Below are positions 36,505-49,666 of a stretch of 64,000 bases of DNA, one piece after another (position 1 is the first letter of the stretch; the number at the start of each line of letters is the position of its first letter). The stretch lies in the NCBI RefSeq assembly GCF_025463825.1, contig NZ_JAODBG010000119.1, positions 1 through 64,000 on the forward strand, given 5' to 3'. The notes below the pieces were generated by a model. It ran no database searches. It was not told where the DNA came from and worked only from the letters and a program-made list of their open reading frames with translations. Source of the DNA: Cryobacterium sp. (lineage in GTDB: Bacteria; Actinomycetota; Actinomycetes; Actinomycetales; Microbacteriaceae). Both the position numbers and the translations under genes were made by a program.

Positions 36505-36987
36505 ATGATCCAAGGCTTCAAAGCATTCATCATGCGAGGCAATGTCATCGACCTCGCCGTCGCCGTGGTCATCGGCGCCGCGTTCACGGCCGTCGTCACC
36601 GCCATCGTCGAGAGTGTGTTCAACCCCCTGATCGGCGCCATTTTCAACGCCGACAGCCTGAAAACCTCCTTCCTCTTCGGGCTCTCCGGCGGCGGCGAGC
36701 TGGCCCTCGGTGCGGTGCTGGCGGCCGTCATCAACTTCTTGCTGATCGCGGCGGTGGTCTATTTCGCGTTCGTGCTGCCGATCAACCGCATGAAGCAGGC
36801 GCAGGAGCGCCGCCTGGCCGCCCAGGCTCCGGGTGTCGAGGAAGCCGCGCCCCTGACCGACATCGTCCTGCTGAGCGAGATCCGGGACCTGCTCGCCGCC
36901 TCGACGGGCGCCACGGCCCACCCCCACGTCACGGATGCCGCCGCCGCGGCGCGCCCCAGCGACGGCGCCCCCAAGCACACGCTGTAA
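36505..36987 (+). CDS. mscL: Large-conductance mechanosensitive channel MscL
   Basis: A 160-aa channel protein: MIQGFKAFIMRGNVIDLAVAVVIG is the classical MscL N-terminal helix and TM1, followed by a periplasmic loop and TM2 (AAVINFLLIAAVVYFAFVLPIN), then the cytoplasmic bundle with LTDIVLLSEIRDLLAA. It opens under hypo-osmotic membrane tension. ATG 36505 is preceded by gaagga; the track ORF starts in a shadow. A GC hairpin follows (36998-37027). Confidence 0.95.
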   Translation: MIQGFKAFIMRGNVIDLAVAVVIGAAFTAVVTAIVESVFNPLIGAIFNADSLKTSFLFGLSGGGELALGAVLAAVINFLLIAAVVYFAFVLPINRMKQAQERRLAAQAPGVEEAAPLTDIVLLSEIRDLLAASTGATAHPHVTDAAAAARPSDGAPKHTL

Positions 36988-37350: not shown

Positions 37351-37590
37351 CTACCAGTGTGGGGGCTTGTCCTGACGGAGCCGGGCGTCGTTGGCGCTCG
37401 TGGCGGAGCCGTCGCCGGAAGTCTGGCCGCCCTCCTCGCGGGGCGCGGGTTCGGGGCTGGGGTCGGTGTCCGGGGCCGGGGTCAGGCGCGCTCGGCGGGC
37501 ACCGGCCGACCGCACGACACGCTGGCGCGGCTCGGCCGCCGACACGGTCTCGGCGGGCGTGGCCGGGTCAGCCGCGGCGGGGTCAGGCAC
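37351..37590 (-). CDS. Small protein with C-terminal DKPPHW motif (79 aa)
   Basis: The track shows this frame only as the tail of a longer shadow ORF. GTG 37590 overlaps the stop of the 1251-aa helicase-like gene by eight bases (GTGCCTGA). The 79-aa product is low-complexity and Pro/Ala/Glu-rich, ending NDARLRQDKPPHW, a tail I recognise as recurrent (NDxRLxxDxPPHW) in small actinobacterial proteins. The overlap suggests translational coupling and a joint role with the helicase-like protein. Function unknown. Confidence 0.65.
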   Translation of the reverse strand: MPDPAAADPATPAETVSAAEPRQRVVRSAGARRARLTPAPDTDPSPEPAPREEGGQTSGDGSATSANDARLRQDKPPHW

Positions 37591-40500
37591 GGTGCGCCGG
37601 ACCGTTTGACCCCTCGGTCGGCGTGATCCCTGCGAGGGCGGCGACGCGGGCGGCCACCGCATCCGGATTGCTGAACAGTTCGAAGCTGTGCACCCGCAGG
37701 TAGTGCCAGCCGAGGCGCCGCAGCACCTCGGGGCGCAGCCGCAGGGACTCGCGCAGACTGGCCCGGTTGACCACGGCGTCGGTCTCCACGACCACGGCGC
37801 GGCCGGCGTGCGAGGCGGCCAGCGCGAGCTTCCCGCGGTGTCCGAGCGATACGGTGAGGCCCTTGCGTTCAAGGCGGCGGGCGAGGTCGACCAGCATGGC
37901 TTCGCGGGCATCCGGCACGGCAACCTCGTTGCGACGCGCCTCGGTCTCGGTCAGCACCTGCGAGAGGGCCAGGATGCCGTGCCGCTGCCGGTCGGCGTCG
38001 ATGTCGATGGGGCGGAAGCAGGAGACGATGTCCATGGCGCGGCGGGCGCGGGTCATGCCGATCGCGAGCAGGCGTTCACCGCCGGGTTCGCCGAGGGAAC
38101 CGAAGTTGCTCAGCAGCCGGCCGTGCGGGGTGCGGCCGTAGCCGATCGAGAAGATCACCCGGTCGCGGCTCTGCGCCACGGCCTGCTCGAGGGTGAGCAC
38201 CGTGAAGGGTTCGGCGCGGTCCTTGAGGATGAAGTCGCTCAGGTCGGTGCGCTTGGCGAACGCGGCGAGCACGGCCTGGTGCACGCGCACGGCGTGCCGG
38301 GCGCTGGCGGTGATCACCATCAGGGATTCCCGGGGGCGCTTGACGGCGTGGTCCATGACCAGGTCGACGACCTTCGACACCTCGGCGTCCACGCTCTCCA
38401 CAGCGCCACTGTCGGCGTCGGGCATTCCGTGCCCGCCGGCGACGTAGTTGAGGGTGAGGCTGCCGTGGCCGAGGAAGCTGCCCGCCCAGGGCAGCGAGTC
38501 GATCCGGCCGCCGTAGAAGCGGTGGTTGACCAGCTCGGCGAGGTCTTCGCCGCCGGCCCGGTAGCTGCGGGTGAGCGTGAGGGTCGGCAGCAGCTCGCCG
38601 AGGCGGGCCAGGGCGGAGTCGGCGTGCAGGGCGTCGACGTTGGTCTCCTGCGGCACGGGCACGTCGGCCGGTTCCAGGATGCCGGTCTCGAACGGTGACG
38701 GCGTCTGCGTGACCGGGTCACCGAACGCGACGACCTGCTTGCCGCGACGGATCGCGCCCACGTTCTCGGCGAGGGTGGTCGCGCCGGCGTCGACGAGCAG
38801 CACGGCGTCGAAGGTCATGGTGTCGTCGAGGGCGGCCACCTCGTAGGGCGAGGCGAGCCAGACGGGGGCGAGCACCCGGCCCAGGTGCGGCGAGACCTCG
38901 TTGATGCGCGAGGGCGTGGCGCGGTCGGCCCGGAGCAACCGGCGCAGCTGGTCGGCTTCTTCCGGCCAGTCGACGACGCCGATCTTCCAGGTCTCGGCGA
39001 GCAGCCAGGCCAGGATCTGGCCGGTGCTGGCGGCGTGGGCCTCATCGACGAGCTTGAAGTCGGCTTCGAGCCGGTCCAGCACCTGGGTGTTGGCGTTCAG
39101 CAGGGCCTTGTCGCCGCCCAGCATGACCTCCAGCACGGACTGCCACCAGGCCAGCTCGAGCTCCGCGGCGACATCCTGCTCCGACACGTGCCGCAGCGAC
39201 AGATCGGTCATCAGTGGGTCGAGGTTGTGTTCGCGCAGGGTCGCGAGCAGGGCGGTGCGCTCGTGCAGGTTGGCGAGCACCTCGCTGTCCGCTGCGAGGC
39301 CGGCGATGGTGCGCTGCAGGTCGCGGATCGGCTGCGAGATGAGCTGGCGGGGGGTGCCGGCGTTGCCCAGCGGACCGTCGAGCCTGCCGAGGTCTTCGGC
39401 GACCCGCTGGAACGCCACGTGCACGTCGTTGATGCCGACCGGGACCTCCGGGGTGACGCCGGCGGCGGCATACCGCTGCCACAGCGTGCGCTGCTGCTGG
39501 ATGCGCCGCAGGCTCTCGTTCATGTCGCTCACGTGCACCCCCGGCCGCAGGTACTCGTCGGCGAGGCGGCGCAACCGGCGCCGGTTCGACGAGGTCATCT
39601 CCGGGGCATCCCGGCGCGCCGAGGTGGCGGCGATCAGTTCGGTGAGCGACCTGTCGAACACCGAGGGCTGGAACTTGTCCAGGGTCTCGCGGATGTCCAG
39701 CAACAGGCGCAGGTAGATGCCGAGCTCGTGCACCGTCTCGAACGGGCGCAGCCGGGTCTGGCCGACCAGATTGGTTGCGCGGTCCAGCAGGCGCTGCAGC
39801 TCGGGCTGGTTGAGCCGTTTCGCGAGCTCGTGCGCGGCGCCGGCATCCGCGGTGGAGGAGAACGATGCCCCGTACCAGGGCGAGTCGCCCGGCCCGTAGC
39901 GGAACTGGCCCAGCACGGCGGCCTTGATCAGGATCGCGGCGGCGCTGGCCCGGTCGTGGGCGAGGCGCTCGAGCGCCACCCGGTCCAGCCGGGCGGTGGT
40001 CGACGGCGGCGACGGCAGCTGGGCGAGCCGGGCAAGTTCACCGAGGGCATCGAGCACCGACACGCCGAGCACGGCGTCCTTGCGGGTGAGTGCCGAACGG
40101 TAGTCCAGCAGCACCTTGCGCAGGCGCACGAGGGCGTCGTCGACGTCGCCGACCTTGGGCTGCACGCACTTCTCGTTGCGGGTGATCGACTGGATCAGGT
40201 CGCGGCGCAGAGTGCGCGGCGTCACGGCGACGCCGGGCAGGCCCACCTGCACGAGGCGGTGGGCGATGCCGTCGAGGCTGGAGCGGCGGGCACTGACCAC
40301 GAGCACCCGCTTGTGCTGGGCGATCAGCGAGCCGATGGCGTTCACGATGGTCTGGGTGCCGCCGGTGCCCGGCAGGGTCTTCACGACGAGGGAGTTGCCG
40401 GCGCTGATCTGCGCGACGACGTTCTCCTGCTCGGCGTCGGCATCCAGCAGCAGGGTGTCGGTGCCGGGCGGGCGCACGTCCTGGCCGACCGGCAGCACCG

Positions 40501-41338
40501 GGTGGTAGGCCATTTCGATGGCGCGGCGGGCCGTGGGGTTTCCGGCGACGGCGTCGAGCACGGAGTGGGTGAGCTTGTGCGCGTCGACGGCCATGGCCCG
40601 GCCGACGTCGGCGAAGGAGGACGCCACCAGGCGTGGGGAGACGTTGAACCAGGGCAGGTGCGAGGTCAGTCCGCGCAACCGGTCGATCACCGGTTGCGGC
40701 TTGAACGCGCCGTTGGTCACGGCGAGGGCCACGAACGCATCCGCGTCGAGGGTGATCGTGAACTGGTCGTGCAGGGCCCGGGCCAACTCGGGGTTGAGGA
40801 ACGGGGCGCCCTTGAGCTTGAGCTCGAAGTCCCGGCCGTACCGGCGGATGGCCAGGGGCCGCAGCAGCACCGGCGCGGTGTACTCGACGTCGCCGTGGCG
40901 CCACTGGGCCAGCCCGATGGCGAGGTGCACCGATTCGATGCCGCGCATCGAACGCAGTTCGATGCCCTTCTGGGTGATCTCGTTGGCGGCCAGGCGGGCG
41001 TTGCGCAACGCCAGCTCGTCCCGGATGAGGTTGGACAGCAGGGTGGTCTTGCCGGTGATGAACTGCGGCAGGCCACCGGGGTGGGTGGCGGAGAGTTCGA
41101 TGCGGGAGCGCGGGCTGTCGCCGAAGTGCAGCAGCGGCGAGTGGCCGCCGACGGCGGCCAGTTCGTCGCGCCAGCGCTGCCAGGTGGGTTCGGCGATGTT
41201 CCCGGCCACGAGGGCCGGGTCGCCCAGGCTCACCGAGTCCGGGGAGGTCGCAGATCGCGAATCGGCTGACGGCACGTCGGTGTACTCCGACGTGAAATCG
41301 TCATCTTCTGGTTTTCTATCGAGGCGCCACACACCCAC
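37583..41338 (-). CDS. Superfamily-I helicase-like protein with C-terminal REase-like domain
   Basis: A 1251-aa protein. The N-terminal ~280 residues resemble the domain preceding AAA_11/DUF4011-type helicases (FITGKTTLLSNLIRDE, GIESVHLAIGLAQW). The Walker A position reads LPGTGGTQT (Gly for the catalytic Lys) and the motif-II position LLVDAGATT (no DE), while later helicase blocks (LTRSYRAG, GMTRARRAMDIV) are intact in outline. The C-terminal ~100 residues (AMLVDLARRLERKG, VVVETDA, LRLRPEVLRRLGWHYLRVHS) match the MTES_1575/VSR-like nuclease tail, also with altered catalytic positions. It may bind nucleic acid without ATP hydrolysis. Start ATG 41338. Confidence 0.75.
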   Translation of the reverse strand: MGVWRLDRKPEDDDFTSEYTDVPSADSRSATSPDSVSLGDPALVAGNIAEPTWQRWRDELAAVGGHSPLLHFGDSPRSRIELSATHPGGLPQFITGKTTLLSNLIRDELALRNARLAANEITQKGIELRSMRGIESVHLAIGLAQWRHGDVEYTAPVLLRPLAIRRYGRDFELKLKGAPFLNPELARALHDQFTITLDADAFVALAVTNGAFKPQPVIDRLRGLTSHLPWFNVSPRLVASSFADVGRAMAVDAHKLTHSVLDAVAGNPTARRAIEMAYHPVLPVGQDVRPPGTDTLLLDADAEQENVVAQISAGNSLVVKTLPGTGGTQTIVNAIGSLIAQHKRVLVVSARRSSLDGIAHRLVQVGLPGVAVTPRTLRRDLIQSITRNEKCVQPKVGDVDDALVRLRKVLLDYRSALTRKDAVLGVSVLDALGELARLAQLPSPPSTTARLDRVALERLAHDRASAAAILIKAAVLGQFRYGPGDSPWYGASFSSTADAGAAHELAKRLNQPELQRLLDRATNLVGQTRLRPFETVHELGIYLRLLLDIRETLDKFQPSVFDRSLTELIAATSARRDAPEMTSSNRRRLRRLADEYLRPGVHVSDMNESLRRIQQQRTLWQRYAAAGVTPEVPVGINDVHVAFQRVAEDLGRLDGPLGNAGTPRQLISQPIRDLQRTIAGLAADSEVLANLHERTALLATLREHNLDPLMTDLSLRHVSEQDVAAELELAWWQSVLEVMLGGDKALLNANTQVLDRLEADFKLVDEAHAASTGQILAWLLAETWKIGVVDWPEEADQLRRLLRADRATPSRINEVSPHLGRVLAPVWLASPYEVAALDDTMTFDAVLLVDAGATTLAENVGAIRRGKQVVAFGDPVTQTPSPFETGILEPADVPVPQETNVDALHADSALARLGELLPTLTLTRSYRAGGEDLAELVNHRFYGGRIDSLPWAGSFLGHGSLTLNYVAGGHGMPDADSGAVESVDAEVSKVVDLVMDHAVKRPRESLMVITASARHAVRVHQAVLAAFAKRTDLSDFILKDRAEPFTVLTLEQAVAQSRDRVIFSIGYGRTPHGRLLSNFGSLGEPGGERLLAIGMTRARRAMDIVSCFRPIDIDADRQRHGILALSQVLTETEARRNEVAVPDAREAMLVDLARRLERKGLTVSLGHRGKLALAASHAGRAVVVETDAVVNRASLRESLRLRPEVLRRLGWHYLRVHSFELFSNPDAVAARVAALAGITPTEGSNGPAHRA

Positions 41339-43387: not shown

Positions 43388-44161
43388 GTGCTCCCACTCC
43401 CCTCCGCCGGCCCGGATCGTGGTGGTCCGATCAGCGCCGACCCGATCAGCGCCGACCCGTTCAGCGCCGACGTGGCCGGCGTCACCCCGGCCGGGGTCGA
43501 CCTGGCCACCACCGTGGTGGTGCAGCTGGCCGACCAGGCGCCGACGAGGGCGGGCGACCACCAGAGGTTGGTGGCCCTGGTCGGCCGGGTGACCGGTGTT
43601 GATCCGGCGGCCGTCACGCTTGACCGGGTCTGCCCGAACTGTGGGGAGTCCGGCCACGGGCCGCTCCGGGTCGGGTTCAGCGCCGCGCCGGATGCCGCCC
43701 CTCCCGTGCACGTGAGCCTTGCCCGGGCGGGCGGGCGGCTCGCCCTCGCCGTGACCGCGGCCGGCACGGTGGGCATCGACCTGGAGTCCGTCGCCGAGCT
43801 GGGCCGGTCGCCGGTCGCCGACGTCGTGTTGTCCGGCGCCGAAGCGCGCGCTCTGGCCGACCTCGACCCGGGCGCCGCGGAGGTCACCGTTGCCGTCGTC
43901 TGGACCGCGAAGGAGGCGGTACTGAAGGCCGCCGGGGTCGGCCTGAGGGTCGATCCGCGCGACCTCACCGTCGCCCTGCCCGGGCCAGCCGGCGCCACCG
44001 CCGCCGGCTGGCCCGTCCTCGCCGACTGGCCGGCTGCGCCGTTCCCGCCAGGGCACGTGCACCTGCTGCCGCTGGCCGCAGCCGCCGGTCTCGTCGGTAC
44101 CGTCGCGGTGGTCCGCACCGACCGGCCCGCGCTGAGAATGCTACCCGCCCCGACCCGCTGA
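43388..44161 (+). CDS. 4'-phosphopantetheinyl transferase (Sfp-like)
   Basis: A 257-aa enzyme that transfers phosphopantetheine to carrier domains. The two Sfp signatures are visible: VGIDLESV (Mg-binding) and VWTAKEAVLKAAGVGL (the W-x-x-KEA/S motif). The N-terminal CPNCGESGHGPL is the usual Cys/Gly/His-rich block of Sfp enzymes. The obvious client in the window is the Pls/PosA synthetase, though its gene faces the other way (convergent). GTG 43388 lies six bases after TAGGGT (leaderless type). Confidence 0.88.
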   Translation: MLPLPSAGPDRGGPISADPISADPFSADVAGVTPAGVDLATTVVVQLADQAPTRAGDHQRLVALVGRVTGVDPAAVTLDRVCPNCGESGHGPLRVGFSAAPDAAPPVHVSLARAGGRLALAVTAAGTVGIDLESVAELGRSPVADVVLSGAEARALADLDPGAAEVTVAVVWTAKEAVLKAAGVGLRVDPRDLTVALPGPAGATAAGWPVLADWPAAPFPPGHVHLLPLAAAAGLVGTVAVVRTDRPALRMLPAPTR

Positions 44162-44275: not shown

Positions 44276-45631
44276 TTAGTGCGCCGGCGCCGGCGGGTCG
44301 GGTTTGAGCTGCGGCAGGGCCTTGGCCGACACCCAGCGGGCCACGATCTTGTCGGCGACGGCGGTGCCGGCCGCTGCGCTGAAGCAGCCGAGCAGGTGCT
44401 CCGGCGTGACGTTGCCGTGCCGGTGGGTGCGGGCGTAGGCGCGCAGTGCCGTGAAGAACGCCTCGTCGCCGATGGCCTGGCGCACGGCGTGCAGGGCGAG
44501 CGCCCCGCGCTTGTACACCCGGTCGTCGAACATGTCCTGCGGGCCGGGGTCGCCCACGACGATGTTCTTGGGCAGGGCGTCCAGCTCGGCTCGGTGCAGC
44601 ACGGCGCTCGCGTGCGCGGTGATCCCGCCGCTGGCCTCCGCCCAGATCCATTCGGCGTAGCAGGCGAAGCCCTCGTGCAGCCAGATGTCGGCCCACCGGG
44701 TGAGGGTGAGGCTGTTGCCGAACCACTGGTGGGCCAGTTCGTGCGCGATCAGCCGGTCGCTTCCGTGCAGGCCGTCGACGTGGTTGCGGCCGAACACGCC
44801 GAGGCCGTGCGCTTCGAGTGGGATCTCCAGTTCGTCGTCGGTGACGACGACCGCGTACGCCGGGAACGGGTAGGGGCCGAAGGCCGCGCTGAACACGGCG
44901 ATCATCTCACCGAGCCGGGCGAAGTCCACGGCCACCTGGCGGGCCAGTGCGGGTGGGAAGAACAGGCTGTGCGCCACCGGTGCGGCGGCGATGTCGTGCC
45001 GGCGGTACCGGCCGATCTGCACGCTGGCCAGGTAGGGCGCCATCGGCTCCACGACGCCGAAGGTCCAGGTGGTGCGGCCGGAGCGGGTGCTCTTGGCCAG
45101 CACCGGCCCGTTGCTCACCACCGTGTACGGCGCCTCGCAGGTGAGCTGGATGCGGAAGGAGGCCTTGTCCCTGGGGTGGTCGTTGCACGGGAACCAGGAC
45201 GGCGCCCCGCTGGGCTGGCCGGCGACGAGCACGCCGTCGGTGAGCTCCTCCCAACCCACCTCGCCCCAGTGGCTGCGCACCGGATGCGGCGCCCCGCGGT
45301 ACCGCACCGTCACCTCGAACGGCTCCCCCGCGACCAGCGGTGTCGCCGGCGTGATCACGAGCTTCCGCGCCGAATGCACGATTTTCGCGGCCGGGGCACC
45401 GGCAACGGTGACCTTCTCGACGGTGAGGCCGGCCAGGTCCAGGCTGAACCGGTCCAGCCCGGTGAGGGCCCTGGCCCGGATCGTGGCCGTGGCGGTCAAC
45501 CGGTTGGTGGCGACGCGGTAGTCCAGGTTCAGGTCGTAGTGGTCGACCCGGTAGCCGCCGTTGCCGCTGGCGGGCAGGTATGCGTCACCCGCGGACGCGG
45601 ATCCGTGCACGGGGGGCGGAGTTTGCAACAT
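44276..45631 (-). CDS. M1-family zinc metallopeptidase
   Basis: A 451-aa aminopeptidase of the compact M1 type: N-terminal beta-sandwich (VDHYDLNLDYRVATNRLTAT), the catalytic HELAHQWFGN with downstream Glu in WLHEGFACYAEW, and a short C-terminal helical part. No signal peptide is visible. It lies 6 bp downstream of the Pls/PosA synthetase stop, so the two are one operon; it could process, recycle or detoxify the synthetase product, or simply be a general peptidase. The absence of a GAMEN exopeptidase motif was not verified residue by residue. Confidence 0.87.
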   Translation of the reverse strand: MLQTPPPVHGSASAGDAYLPASGNGGYRVDHYDLNLDYRVATNRLTATATIRARALTGLDRFSLDLAGLTVEKVTVAGAPAAKIVHSARKLVITPATPLVAGEPFEVTVRYRGAPHPVRSHWGEVGWEELTDGVLVAGQPSGAPSWFPCNDHPRDKASFRIQLTCEAPYTVVSNGPVLAKSTRSGRTTWTFGVVEPMAPYLASVQIGRYRRHDIAAAPVAHSLFFPPALARQVAVDFARLGEMIAVFSAAFGPYPFPAYAVVVTDDELEIPLEAHGLGVFGRNHVDGLHGSDRLIAHELAHQWFGNSLTLTRWADIWLHEGFACYAEWIWAEASGGITAHASAVLHRAELDALPKNIVVGDPGPQDMFDDRVYKRGALALHAVRQAIGDEAFFTALRAYARTHRHGNVTPEHLLGCFSAAAGTAVADKIVARWVSAKALPQLKPDPPAPAH

Positions 45632-45637
45632 AGAAGG

Positions 45638-48600
45638 TCAAGTCTTCCACGGCGGCCGGTGCCACGGCGCAATCGGGTTGCCGGACCAGAGGGAGTCGGT
45701 GGGCACCCGCTCGCCCCGCATCACCAGCGACCCCGGCCCGACGGTGGCGTTGTCGTCGATCCGGGCCGCGGGCAGGATCACGCTGTTGGGCCCGAGGGTG
45801 CCGCCGGTGCCGATCGACACGGTGTCCAACTGCATGATCCGGTCGTGGAACAGGTGCGTCTGCACGACGCAGCCGCGGTTGACGCTACTGCCGGCGGCGA
45901 GGTGCACCAGGTCGGCTTCCGGCAGCCAGTACGACTCGCACCACACGCCCCGCCCGATGGTGGCGCCCAGCGACCGCAGCCACAGCGCCAGCGCCGGGGT
46001 GCCCGACGCGTTCTGCGCGAACCACGGCCGGGCGACCATCTCCACGAAGGTGTCCGACACCTCGTTCCGCCAGATGAACGACGACCAGAGCGGATGCTCC
46101 GACACCCGGATGCGCCCCACCAGCAGCCACTTGGCGGCGCTGGTCAGCGCCGCCGCGACCACCCCGGCGGCCAGCAGCACGAACGGGGACAGGAGCAGTG
46201 CCACCCCGGGCCCGGCCGCCAGCCACAGGGCATCGAGCCCGGCGAGCACGCCAAGGCCGATCCACGCGGAGACGAAGACGGGCACCAGGCGGAGCACCTC
46301 CCACAGCGACCGGGCCAGGATCAGCCGGGCCGGCGGGTGGAAGGTGCGGGCCTCGTCGATGTCGGTCACCCGGCGGCGGAGGCGGGTGGGCGGGTTGCCC
46401 AGCCAGGAGGAACCGCGCTTGGCCTTCCGCGGGGTGGACGACAGCACGGCCACGAGGCCGTCCCGCGGCACGGTGCGGCCGGGCCCGGCGATGCCGCTGT
46501 TGCCCAGGAAAGCCCGCCGGCCGATCTTGGCGCGGCCGATGCGCATCCAGCCGCCGCCGAGTTCGTAGCAGGCGACCATGGTGTCGTCGGCGAGGAACGC
46601 GCCGGGCGCGATGGTGCTCAGCGACGGCACCAGCAGCACGGTGGACGCCTCGACGCCGGGGCCGACCTTCGCGCCGAGCAGCCGCAGCCACACCGGAGTG
46701 AGCAGGCTGGCGTAGACCGGGAACAGCAGGGTGCGGGCGCCGTCGAGCAGCCGTTCGGTCATCCAGACCTGCCAGCCCACCCGGCTGCGCACCGCGTGGT
46801 GTCCCTCGGTCAGGCCGAGGCCCAGCAGCCGCACCGCCCCGATGACGGCGCCGGCGTAGAGCAGGCCGGCGGCGAGAACGGCACCCGGCACGGCCAGGGC
46901 GGCCCGGCCGAACGCGCTGCCCAGGCTGCCGGCGTCACCGATGGCCAGGCCCACGATGAGCAGGCCGAGCAGCACGGCCGCGGCGGGGATGCCGGCCAGC
47001 GCGACCGAGCCGGCGCCGTAGGCGATGAGCCAGCGCCGGCGGGCGGGCGGGCGTTCGATTGGCCAGGCCCGGCGGGCTGAGCCGACCCGCACGGCGGGCG
47101 AGCCGGCCCAGCGTTCGCCGCGCGGCACCCGGCCGGATACGGCCGAACCCGGTTCGATCTCGGCGCCGTCGCCGATCTTCGCACCGCCCAGCATGGTGCT
47201 GCGGGAGCCGACCACGGCATCCGCGCCGATGCGCACCCGGCCGATGCGCAGGATGTCGCCGTCGAGCCAGTAGCCGGCCAGGTCCACCTCCGGTTCGATC
47301 GCCGCGCGCTCGCCGATGCTGAGCATCCCCGTGACCGGCGGCACCGAGTGCAGGTCGACGCCGGGTTCGATGCGGGCGCCGAGCATGCGGGCGTAGTAGC
47401 TGATCCACGGCGCCCCGGCGAGGCTGGCGGCGTCGACGAAGTGGGCGACCTGTTCGGCCAGCCACAGCCGCAGGTGCACCCTGCCGCCGCGGGGGTAGTT
47501 CCCCGGGGTGACGCCGCGCAGCAGCAGCCGGGCCACGCCGACGGAGATGGCGATCTTGCCCAGCGGGGTGACGAGCAGCACGAAGCCGGCCAGCACCCAC
47601 CACCACGAGATGGAGGGGGCGAAGGAGGCGCCGGCGGCGGCGAGCACATTGTTGGCCGCCATCAGGTACACCAGCCAGCGGGCGCCGATGAGCAGGTGCA
47701 GCGGCACGCCCAGCAGGCTCTGCAGCAGCCCGGTCTGCGCCGGGACCGGCAGCACCTGCCGGCTGCGGCGGGCCACCGGCGGCAGGCGGCTGTCGAGTTC
47801 GTCGGCCAGCGCGCCGATGCGGGGGTGGTCGTAGATGTCGCTGATGCGGGTGTCGGGAAAGCGCTCGCGGATGGCGGCGACGAACTGGGCCGCCGAAAGG
47901 GAACCGCCGCCGTAGGCGAAGAAGTCGCTGTCCGCGTCGGCGACGGGCACACCGAGGATCGCGGCCCAGTGCCCGGCGAGCCAGCCGGCGGTGCCGCGCA
48001 GCGCAGCCGTGCCGGTGGTGCTGCCGCCGGGCAGCGGCCAGGGCAGCGCGGCCCGGTCGACCTTGCCGGAGGTGCGGGTGGGGATGTTCTCGACGACGGT
48101 GAGCAGCGGTACCAGGGCGGCGGGCAGTGCGGTGCGCAGCGCGTCGGATGCGGCGGGCAGGTCGAACCCGCCTGGTTCGGTCGGTGCGGCGTCGGTGAGG
48201 GACAGGTAGCCGACCAGCACCTGGTTGCCGGCCGGGGTGGTCTGCACGACGGCGGCGGCGCCGGCCACGCCGGGCAGCGCCTGCAGGGCGGCGTCGATCT
48301 CGCCGAGCTCGATGCGCCGGCCGCCGAGCTTGATCTGGTCGTCGGCGCGGCCCACGAACACCAGGCCGGCCGGATCGAACCGCACGAGGTCGCCGCTGCG
48401 GTAGGCGCGCTGCCAGCCGAGGCCGGCGTGCGGGGCATACTTCACGGCATCCTGCGCCGGGTCGAGGTAACGGGCCAGGCCGACACCGCCGATGATCAGC
48501 TCGCCGGTCTCGCCGGCGCGCACCCGGTTGCCGGCCGGGTCGACCACGGCCAGGCTCCAGCCGTCCAGCGGCAGGCCGATACGCACCGGGTCGCTGCCGT

Positions 48601-49666
48601 CCAGCAGGGCGCCGCAGGCCACGACCGTGGCCTCGGTGGGGCCGTAGGTGTTCCACACTTCGCGGCCGCGGGCGCTGATGCGGGCGGCCAGCTCGGGCGG
48701 GCAGGCCTCGCCCCCGAAGATCACCAGGCGCACGTTCTCGAGGGCCTCCTCGGGCCAGAGCGCGGCGAGGGTGGGCACGGTGGAGACCACGGTGATGCCG
48801 TGCGCGATCAGCCACGGACCGAGGTCGGCGCCGCTGCGCACCAGGGTGCGTGGGGCGGGTACCAGGCAGGCCCCGTTCCGCCAGGCCAGCCACATCTCCT
48901 CGCAGGAGGCGTCGAACGCGACCGACAGCCCGGCCAGCACCCGGTCGCCGGGGCCGATGGGTTCGCGGGCGAGGAACAGGCCGGCCTCGGCGTCGACGAA
49001 CGCGGCCGCCGACCGTTGGGTGACGGCGACGCCCTTGGGCACGCCGGTGGAGCCGGAGGTGAAGATGATCCAGGCGTCGTCGTCGGGGGCGGGCATGGGT
49101 TCGCCCCAGTGCGCCAGCGACGGATCCTCCTCCGCGGTCAACGGCCGGTCGGTGAGCACACCGGCATCGAGGCCGTCGCGCACTGTGAAGACGCCGCCGG
49201 CGCCGATCACGCCCACCACTCGGGCCTCACCGAAGACCAGGCGGGCGCGTTCCTCGGGGTCGTCGGCGTCGACGGGCACGTAGGCGGCGCCGACGACGAG
49301 GGTGGCCAGGATCGACAGGTACAGCTCGCGGGTGCCCGACGGGATGCGGATGCCGACGGTGTCGCCGCGGCGCACACCGGCCCGGCTCAGCCGCACGGCC
49401 TGCTCGTTGACCAGCCGCACGACGCGCCGGTAGCTCAGGGCGCCGGTCGCGTCCTCGAGCGCGAGCGCTGTGGGGTGTTCCTCGGCCGTGGCCAGCAGGA
49501 TCTCCACCAGGGTGCGCTCCGGGTGCACCAGGTGGCCGGCATCCAGCACGCCCTGCTCGTGGGCGGGCGCCGACGGGGGCCCGCCGGCCGGGATGGTCGG
49601 CGGCACCGTGTCGGTGTCGGCGGACTCGGCGACGCGCTGGCCGGGCTCCGGGTGGATCTGGGTCAC
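45638..49666 (-). CDS. Pls/PosA-type nonribosomal peptide synthetase
   Basis: A 1342-aa single-module, membrane-anchored synthetase. Residues ~50-520 are an adenylation domain (IIFTSGSTGVPKGVAVTQ, FDASCEEMW, NTYGPTEATV, KVDRAALP with the A10 Lys). A carrier domain follows (FFAYGGGSLSAAQFVA, modified Ser in GGS). The rest is the Pls-type body: about six transmembrane helices around three soluble domains with left-handed beta-helix hexapeptides (IGDGAEIEPGS; IGTGGTLGPNSVI). Homologues (epsilon-poly-lysine synthetase) polymerise basic amino acids without a C or TE domain; the substrate here is unread. Start GTG 49666 with a caggag site. Confidence 0.88.
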   Translation of the reverse strand: MTQIHPEPGQRVAESADTDTVPPTIPAGGPPSAPAHEQGVLDAGHLVHPERTLVEILLATAEEHPTALALEDATGALSYRRVVRLVNEQAVRLSRAGVRRGDTVGIRIPSGTRELYLSILATLVVGAAYVPVDADDPEERARLVFGEARVVGVIGAGGVFTVRDGLDAGVLTDRPLTAEEDPSLAHWGEPMPAPDDDAWIIFTSGSTGVPKGVAVTQRSAAAFVDAEAGLFLAREPIGPGDRVLAGLSVAFDASCEEMWLAWRNGACLVPAPRTLVRSGADLGPWLIAHGITVVSTVPTLAALWPEEALENVRLVIFGGEACPPELAARISARGREVWNTYGPTEATVVACGALLDGSDPVRIGLPLDGWSLAVVDPAGNRVRAGETGELIIGGVGLARYLDPAQDAVKYAPHAGLGWQRAYRSGDLVRFDPAGLVFVGRADDQIKLGGRRIELGEIDAALQALPGVAGAAAVVQTTPAGNQVLVGYLSLTDAAPTEPGGFDLPAASDALRTALPAALVPLLTVVENIPTRTSGKVDRAALPWPLPGGSTTGTAALRGTAGWLAGHWAAILGVPVADADSDFFAYGGGSLSAAQFVAAIRERFPDTRISDIYDHPRIGALADELDSRLPPVARRSRQVLPVPAQTGLLQSLLGVPLHLLIGARWLVYLMAANNVLAAAGASFAPSISWWWVLAGFVLLVTPLGKIAISVGVARLLLRGVTPGNYPRGGRVHLRLWLAEQVAHFVDAASLAGAPWISYYARMLGARIEPGVDLHSVPPVTGMLSIGERAAIEPEVDLAGYWLDGDILRIGRVRIGADAVVGSRSTMLGGAKIGDGAEIEPGSAVSGRVPRGERWAGSPAVRVGSARRAWPIERPPARRRWLIAYGAGSVALAGIPAAAVLLGLLIVGLAIGDAGSLGSAFGRAALAVPGAVLAAGLLYAGAVIGAVRLLGLGLTEGHHAVRSRVGWQVWMTERLLDGARTLLFPVYASLLTPVWLRLLGAKVGPGVEASTVLLVPSLSTIAPGAFLADDTMVACYELGGGWMRIGRAKIGRRAFLGNSGIAGPGRTVPRDGLVAVLSSTPRKAKRGSSWLGNPPTRLRRRVTDIDEARTFHPPARLILARSLWEVLRLVPVFVSAWIGLGVLAGLDALWLAAGPGVALLLSPFVLLAAGVVAAALTSAAKWLLVGRIRVSEHPLWSSFIWRNEVSDTFVEMVARPWFAQNASGTPALALWLRSLGATIGRGVWCESYWLPEADLVHLAAGSSVNRGCVVQTHLFHDRIMQLDTVSIGTGGTLGPNSVILPAARIDDNATVGPGSLVMRGERVPTDSLWSGNPIAPWHRPPWKT

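Follow-up and report, generated by a model that had tools for sequence, protein, structure and literature searches.

A large helicase-like gene, here termed HEL, is a near-universal, vertically inherited core gene of the order Actinomycetales, and we consider it probable that its product, formerly an active DUF4011-SF1 helicase, now serves as a non-catalytic scaffold with a docking tail that ends in the motif PPHW. HEL lies within a 64,000-nucleotide stretch of a Cryobacterium genome (the whole stretch that was analysed, hereafter the window) and is accompanied there by a gene for a 79-aa protein that carries this motif (Table 1). The Actinomycetales include soil, plant, animal and human-associated bacteria, and a large, universally retained gene without catalysis is a strong hint of a housekeeping process yet to be described. 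No account of the HEL family was found under DUF4011, pseudohelicase, Hhe or ProA in literature whose coverage left out most subscription journals, and the literature searched held no description of the PPHW motif either.

Table 1. Position and basis of the features of the HEL locus (window coordinates)
Feature	Coordinates	Strand	Basis
HEL, 1251-aa SF1-type pseudo-helicase/pseudo-nuclease (GTG start, TGA stop)	37583..41338	minus	ORF, orthologs, dN/dS, AlphaFold, Foldseek
Remnant of Walker A (PGTGGT, residues 323-328) with Gly327 in the Lys position	40355..40372	minus	motif alignment, translation
Mostly helical insert between the two RecA halves, residues 470-740	39119..39931	minus	conservation, AlphaFold
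Motif II remnant V-D-A in place of D-E-A, residues 849-851	38786..38794	minus	motif alignment
Motif III remnant FGDPVTQ, residues 872-878	38705..38725	minus	GD retained, GDxxQ Gln lost
MTES_1575/Vsr-type REase-like tail, residues 1163-1226	37661..37852	minus	Pfam, alignment, dN/dS
PPHW protein, 79 aa, GTG start, 8-base overlap with the HEL stop	37351..37590	minus	ORF
Conserved C-terminal tip of the PPHW protein, DARLRQDKPPHW	37354..37389	minus	aligned tails; genome match E 1.3e-9
mscL, which converges on the adjacent PPHW gene	36505..36987	plus	Pfam MscL, 115.9 bits

Occurrence, inheritance and known relatives of HEL

The outline first proposed for this protein, a superfamily I helicase with a VSR/MTES_1575-type tail, was recovered: a DUF4011 N-terminal part is followed by an Upf1-like SF1 helicase and an MTES_1575/Vsr-type nuclease tail. 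HEL itself scores below the Pfam gathering thresholds for both flanking domains (DUF4011, PF13195: 20.4 bits against 22.2; MTES_1575, PF18741: 24.5 bits against 38.2), and its active orthologs reach 27-47 bits for DUF4011 and exceed the threshold for MTES_1575. Identities of 95% and 94% to loci of C. zongtaii and C. arcticum mark the genus as Cryobacterium-like. HEL was present in 41/41 genomes of the genus, 119/120 of the family and 146/149 of the order, counts that include a few partial-match or paralog rows and for which the f19 orthologs had to be found with a profile. It is patchy in the class and rare in other classes of the phylum. In a tree of 74 representatives, 20 taxonomic groups needed 19 changes, the minimum possible, and inheritance is therefore vertical.

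The closest named models belong to the anti-phage DUF4011 helicases with a Vsr-like nuclease, ProA (NCBIfam NF058533; E 2.7e-84) and Hhe (NF042953; E 1.1e-36), and PADLOC matched HEL to PDC-S37. Since the active orthologs also reach 800-867 bits against ProA, HEL might be a domesticated helicase-nuclease of the Hhe/ProA type, which the cell retains as a sensor or decoy to trigger another effector. We regard this as unlikely. HEL obtained 284 bits against a cut-off of 1500 for ProA and 126 against 2000 for Hhe, through significant local matches over its second half, and these models are 1797-1903 aa long whereas HEL has 1251 aa. The broad domain plan is shared, but HEL differs in its missing catalytic residues, its PPHW partner and its vertical, syntenic, near-universal inheritance, where defence genes are patchy; it is kept even in a 0.93-Mb genome of the same family (927,303 bp). 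Because its scores fall so far below the cut-offs and it has the distribution of a core gene, HEL would, as judged by sequence, stand outside both groups. MTES_1575 of Microbacterium testaceum also combines an SF1 helicase with a Vsr-type REase, but at about 2100 aa it is the larger protein and has additional HEPN (described as active), transglutaminase and wHTH domains (PMC3710099); as a different protein, it was ruled out as the ortholog of HEL.

The PPHW protein and its link to HEL

Both the 8-base overlap of the two genes and their pairing across genomes, which the original prediction had proposed to check, were confirmed: the pair co-occurs and is often fused, and among relatives it is the adjacency that is conserved and not the exact overlap. 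The consensus tail reads xxDDxDxxWGDxxxxxxDxRLxRxRPPHWx, with PPHW invariant in 41/41 aligned tails, the tails having been picked by the motif. A repeated motif across the genome was considered and rejected, as only one of 26 DNA matches, the 79-aa gene, has an acidic C-terminus. This lone acidic C-terminus, together with the single place matched by the tail profile in its own genome, puts the motif far beyond chance. At E <= 1 the profile matched 141/149 genomes of the order and 131/148 of the class, which include weak matches and are to be read as upper bounds; about 80 of the 131 class genomes matched at E < 1e-3. Outside the class there were almost no matches. PPHW is thus a short, class-wide C-terminal motif.

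In almost all Microbacteriaceae loci examined, PPHW is a separate ORF directly downstream of HEL. In families f6, f8, f10, f14, f16, f18 and f19 and in Rhodoluna/Aquiluna it forms the C-terminal end of HEL as a fusion. One or the other arrangement, downstream gene or fusion, is seen in most families. The fused form was present in 13 representatives and the split form in 52, and the tree requires about nine changes between the two states. The arrangement with mscL recurs class-wide in synteny maps built from filtered ORFs. Many genomes that lack HEL carry PPHW in the same mscL - fmdB - 5-FTHF cyclo-ligase neighbourhood as the window, and it adjoins mscL without HEL in Actinomycetia genomes such as those of loci L226 and L228, so PPHW would be older than HEL or independent of it. 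An apparent HEL beside PPHW in family f53 (L225) proved to be a clustering artefact, as the genome profile search found a weak partial match elsewhere only. Conversely, PPHW was not detected in some reduced genomes that have HEL (genomes G055 and G209; loci L157, in the 0.93-Mb genome, and L144, in a 0.8-Mb genome) or in a few other genomes with HEL. Neither partner, therefore, strictly needs the other.

That PPHW persists beside mscL where HEL is missing would fit a pair of merely syntenic neighbours with no common function. Repeated fusions, however, typically point to a functional link, and the fusions in the lineages listed above favour such a link over mere synteny; we judge simple neighbourhood to be rather improbable.

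Loss of the catalytic motifs under purifying selection

The predicted absence of the Walker A Lys from GTGGT and of DE from motif II held good. Motif II reads V849-D850-A851-G852 where relatives have D-E-A-S, and the Gln of GDxxQ is Thr (GDPVT). No canonical Lys/DE pair was found elsewhere in the 1251 residues. The sequence ITGKTTLLSN near residue 95 was rejected as a P-loop, because it belongs to the DUF4011 part and has a non-conserved Lys. The GD of motif III, the RD of motif V and the R of motif VI are retained in the family of the window. In the nuclease tail, the expected alteration of the acidic positions was correct only in part: Ala stands in place of the first Asp and RxSL in place of RxRD, but E1185 and D1187 are still there. 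Some lineages retain the nuclease E and D plus the motif VI R. On these alignments the ATPase of the HEL lineage appears to be lost, and the nuclease appears to be lost to varying degrees across the family.

The Walker Lys was absent from 67 of the 74 representatives, nearly all of which have lost Lys, the motif II DE and GDxxQ jointly. The seven that keep it (two of f5, four of f18 and one of f45) also retain DE, GDxxQ and the nuclease Asp/Glu/Asp. Canonical GKSQT and DEAS are found in orthologs from two of the order's families and from one further family of the class. Three genomes of other classes have them too, and these three orthologs are fully canonical (GPPGTGKSQT, DEAS, VQGDERD). Given these canonical orthologs in other lineages, the ancestor of HEL was very probably an active helicase. 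The Walker Lys state cannot be explained by fewer than three changes on the tree. Under parsimony, a single early loss would account for the majority of families, and further losses would fall in f18 and outside the order. The motif loss is an order-wide derived state and not local decay. Within a single orthologous family, active and dead helicases form a natural series. The genome of the window also encodes a second DUF4011-type helicase of 1689 aa (G000, contig C72:10743-14534, locus L331), which is canonical throughout (GPPGTGKSQT, DEAS, VQGDERD) and is a natural active comparison for HEL.

HEL is under strong purifying selection. Its median dN/dS among eight close relatives is ~0.09; by segment, the medians are 0.061 (DUF4011 part), 0.077 (first RecA half), 0.052 (second RecA half) and 0.038 (degenerate nuclease, segment 1131-1233). 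By conservation among degenerate rows, the Walker Lys column ranks at the 6th percentile, in contrast to the most conserved columns, which include W56, W146, W488, W620, W731, W732, D844, D874, D1187 and W1211. The helical insert carries near-invariant W488, R586, W620 and W731. What selection maintains is the fold, together with surfaces outside the ATP site.

The retained acidic residues and motif III, V and VI remnants could be taken to mean that HEL is still an ATPase or nuclease through non-canonical residues. The joint loss of Lys, DE and GDxxQ argues against this, as does the Lys position, where G, Q, A, S, V, R, Y, L and other residues have appeared since the loss; with such free variation, no single replacement has become fixed. 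We consider a working ATPase or nuclease of this kind very unlikely; weak or unusual ATP binding, or some residual activity, would still be compatible with the sequence. Finally, that HEL is a decaying pseudogene, as its degenerate motifs might suggest, or that the PPHW frame, variable in length and start, is no gene at all, is scarcely credible and is refuted by purifying selection and the fusions: intact HEL ORFs occur in nearly all genomes at the low dN/dS given above, and the PPHW tip spans about 20 families, has a pN/pS of 0.39 over the last 20 tail codons and has been fused repeatedly.

Predicted structure and proposed role

An AlphaFold2 model of HEL residues 52-1251 had a mean pLDDT of 87.8 and a pTM of 0.76. 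The nearest solved folds in Foldseek were Senataxin (Setx; E 4.8e-13), Aquarius, Ighmbp2, Upf1, Sen1 and Dna2, and the sequence search agreed on these nearest relatives. None of the Foldseek matches offers a solved counterpart to the DUF4011 part or the large helical insert, which keeps the whole-chain TM-scores as low as about 0.3. HEL is thus predicted to retain the SF1 fold. The Upf1-like SF1B helicases closest to it (Ighmbp2, Upf1, Senataxin, Aquarius) are eukaryotic and lack its DUF4011 part, large helical insert and PPHW tail. A model of the naturally fused Aquiluna ortholog reached a pLDDT of 85.8 overall but 41-53 in the PPHW tail, which is predicted to be disordered and undocked; docking of the tail onto HEL itself is accordingly unsupported by this model.

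With its ATPase residues lost and its fold and selection conserved, HEL shows the pattern of a pseudohelicase. Deinococcus radiodurans PriA, of a different family, is likewise a conserved helicase without Walker A/B, and it binds DNA and a partner; its proposed role is the reloading of the replisome (PMC4504706).

In the scaffold reading that we favour, HEL would descend from an active helicase of the DUF4011-SF1 type that carried a Vsr-like nuclease tail. Its ATPase would have disappeared at an early stage of the order, and its nuclease more completely in some lineages than in others, with strong selection preserving the fold. HEL would then act without catalysis, as a platform for nucleic acid and/or protein, possibly bound through surfaces away from the ATP site, the Trp-rich insert for example. 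The PPHW tail, acidic and disordered, may dock this complex onto a partner, in cis where it is fused and in trans where it is split, and would recruit, or be recruited by, another component of the cell. The acidic C-terminal tip of SSB docks clients, and the PPHW tail resembles it in outline, with an acidic stretch that leads into a hydrophobic C-terminal tip; the likeness is put forward as an analogy. Of the original prediction of a nucleic-acid scaffold or sensor rather than a motor, the scaffold or sensor remains the best reading, with nucleic-acid binding as a putative part of it. More tentatively, and with rather less confidence than the scaffold role itself, HEL may belong to an undescribed core complex of the Actinomycetales, as an ancient helicase-nuclease that became an obligate non-enzymatic scaffold and is recruited by the class-wide acidic PPHW motif, which would make the motif a new peptide-docking code of the Actinomycetia.

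Elsewhere in the window, a 1342-aa protein with AMP-binding, PP-binding and hexapeptide domains is encoded at 45638-49666 on the minus strand and is, by its plan, a Pls-like single-module synthetase. It is adjoined by an M1 peptidase and a 4'-phosphopantetheinyl transferase (neighbouring genes at 44276-45631, minus strand, and 43388-44161, plus strand).
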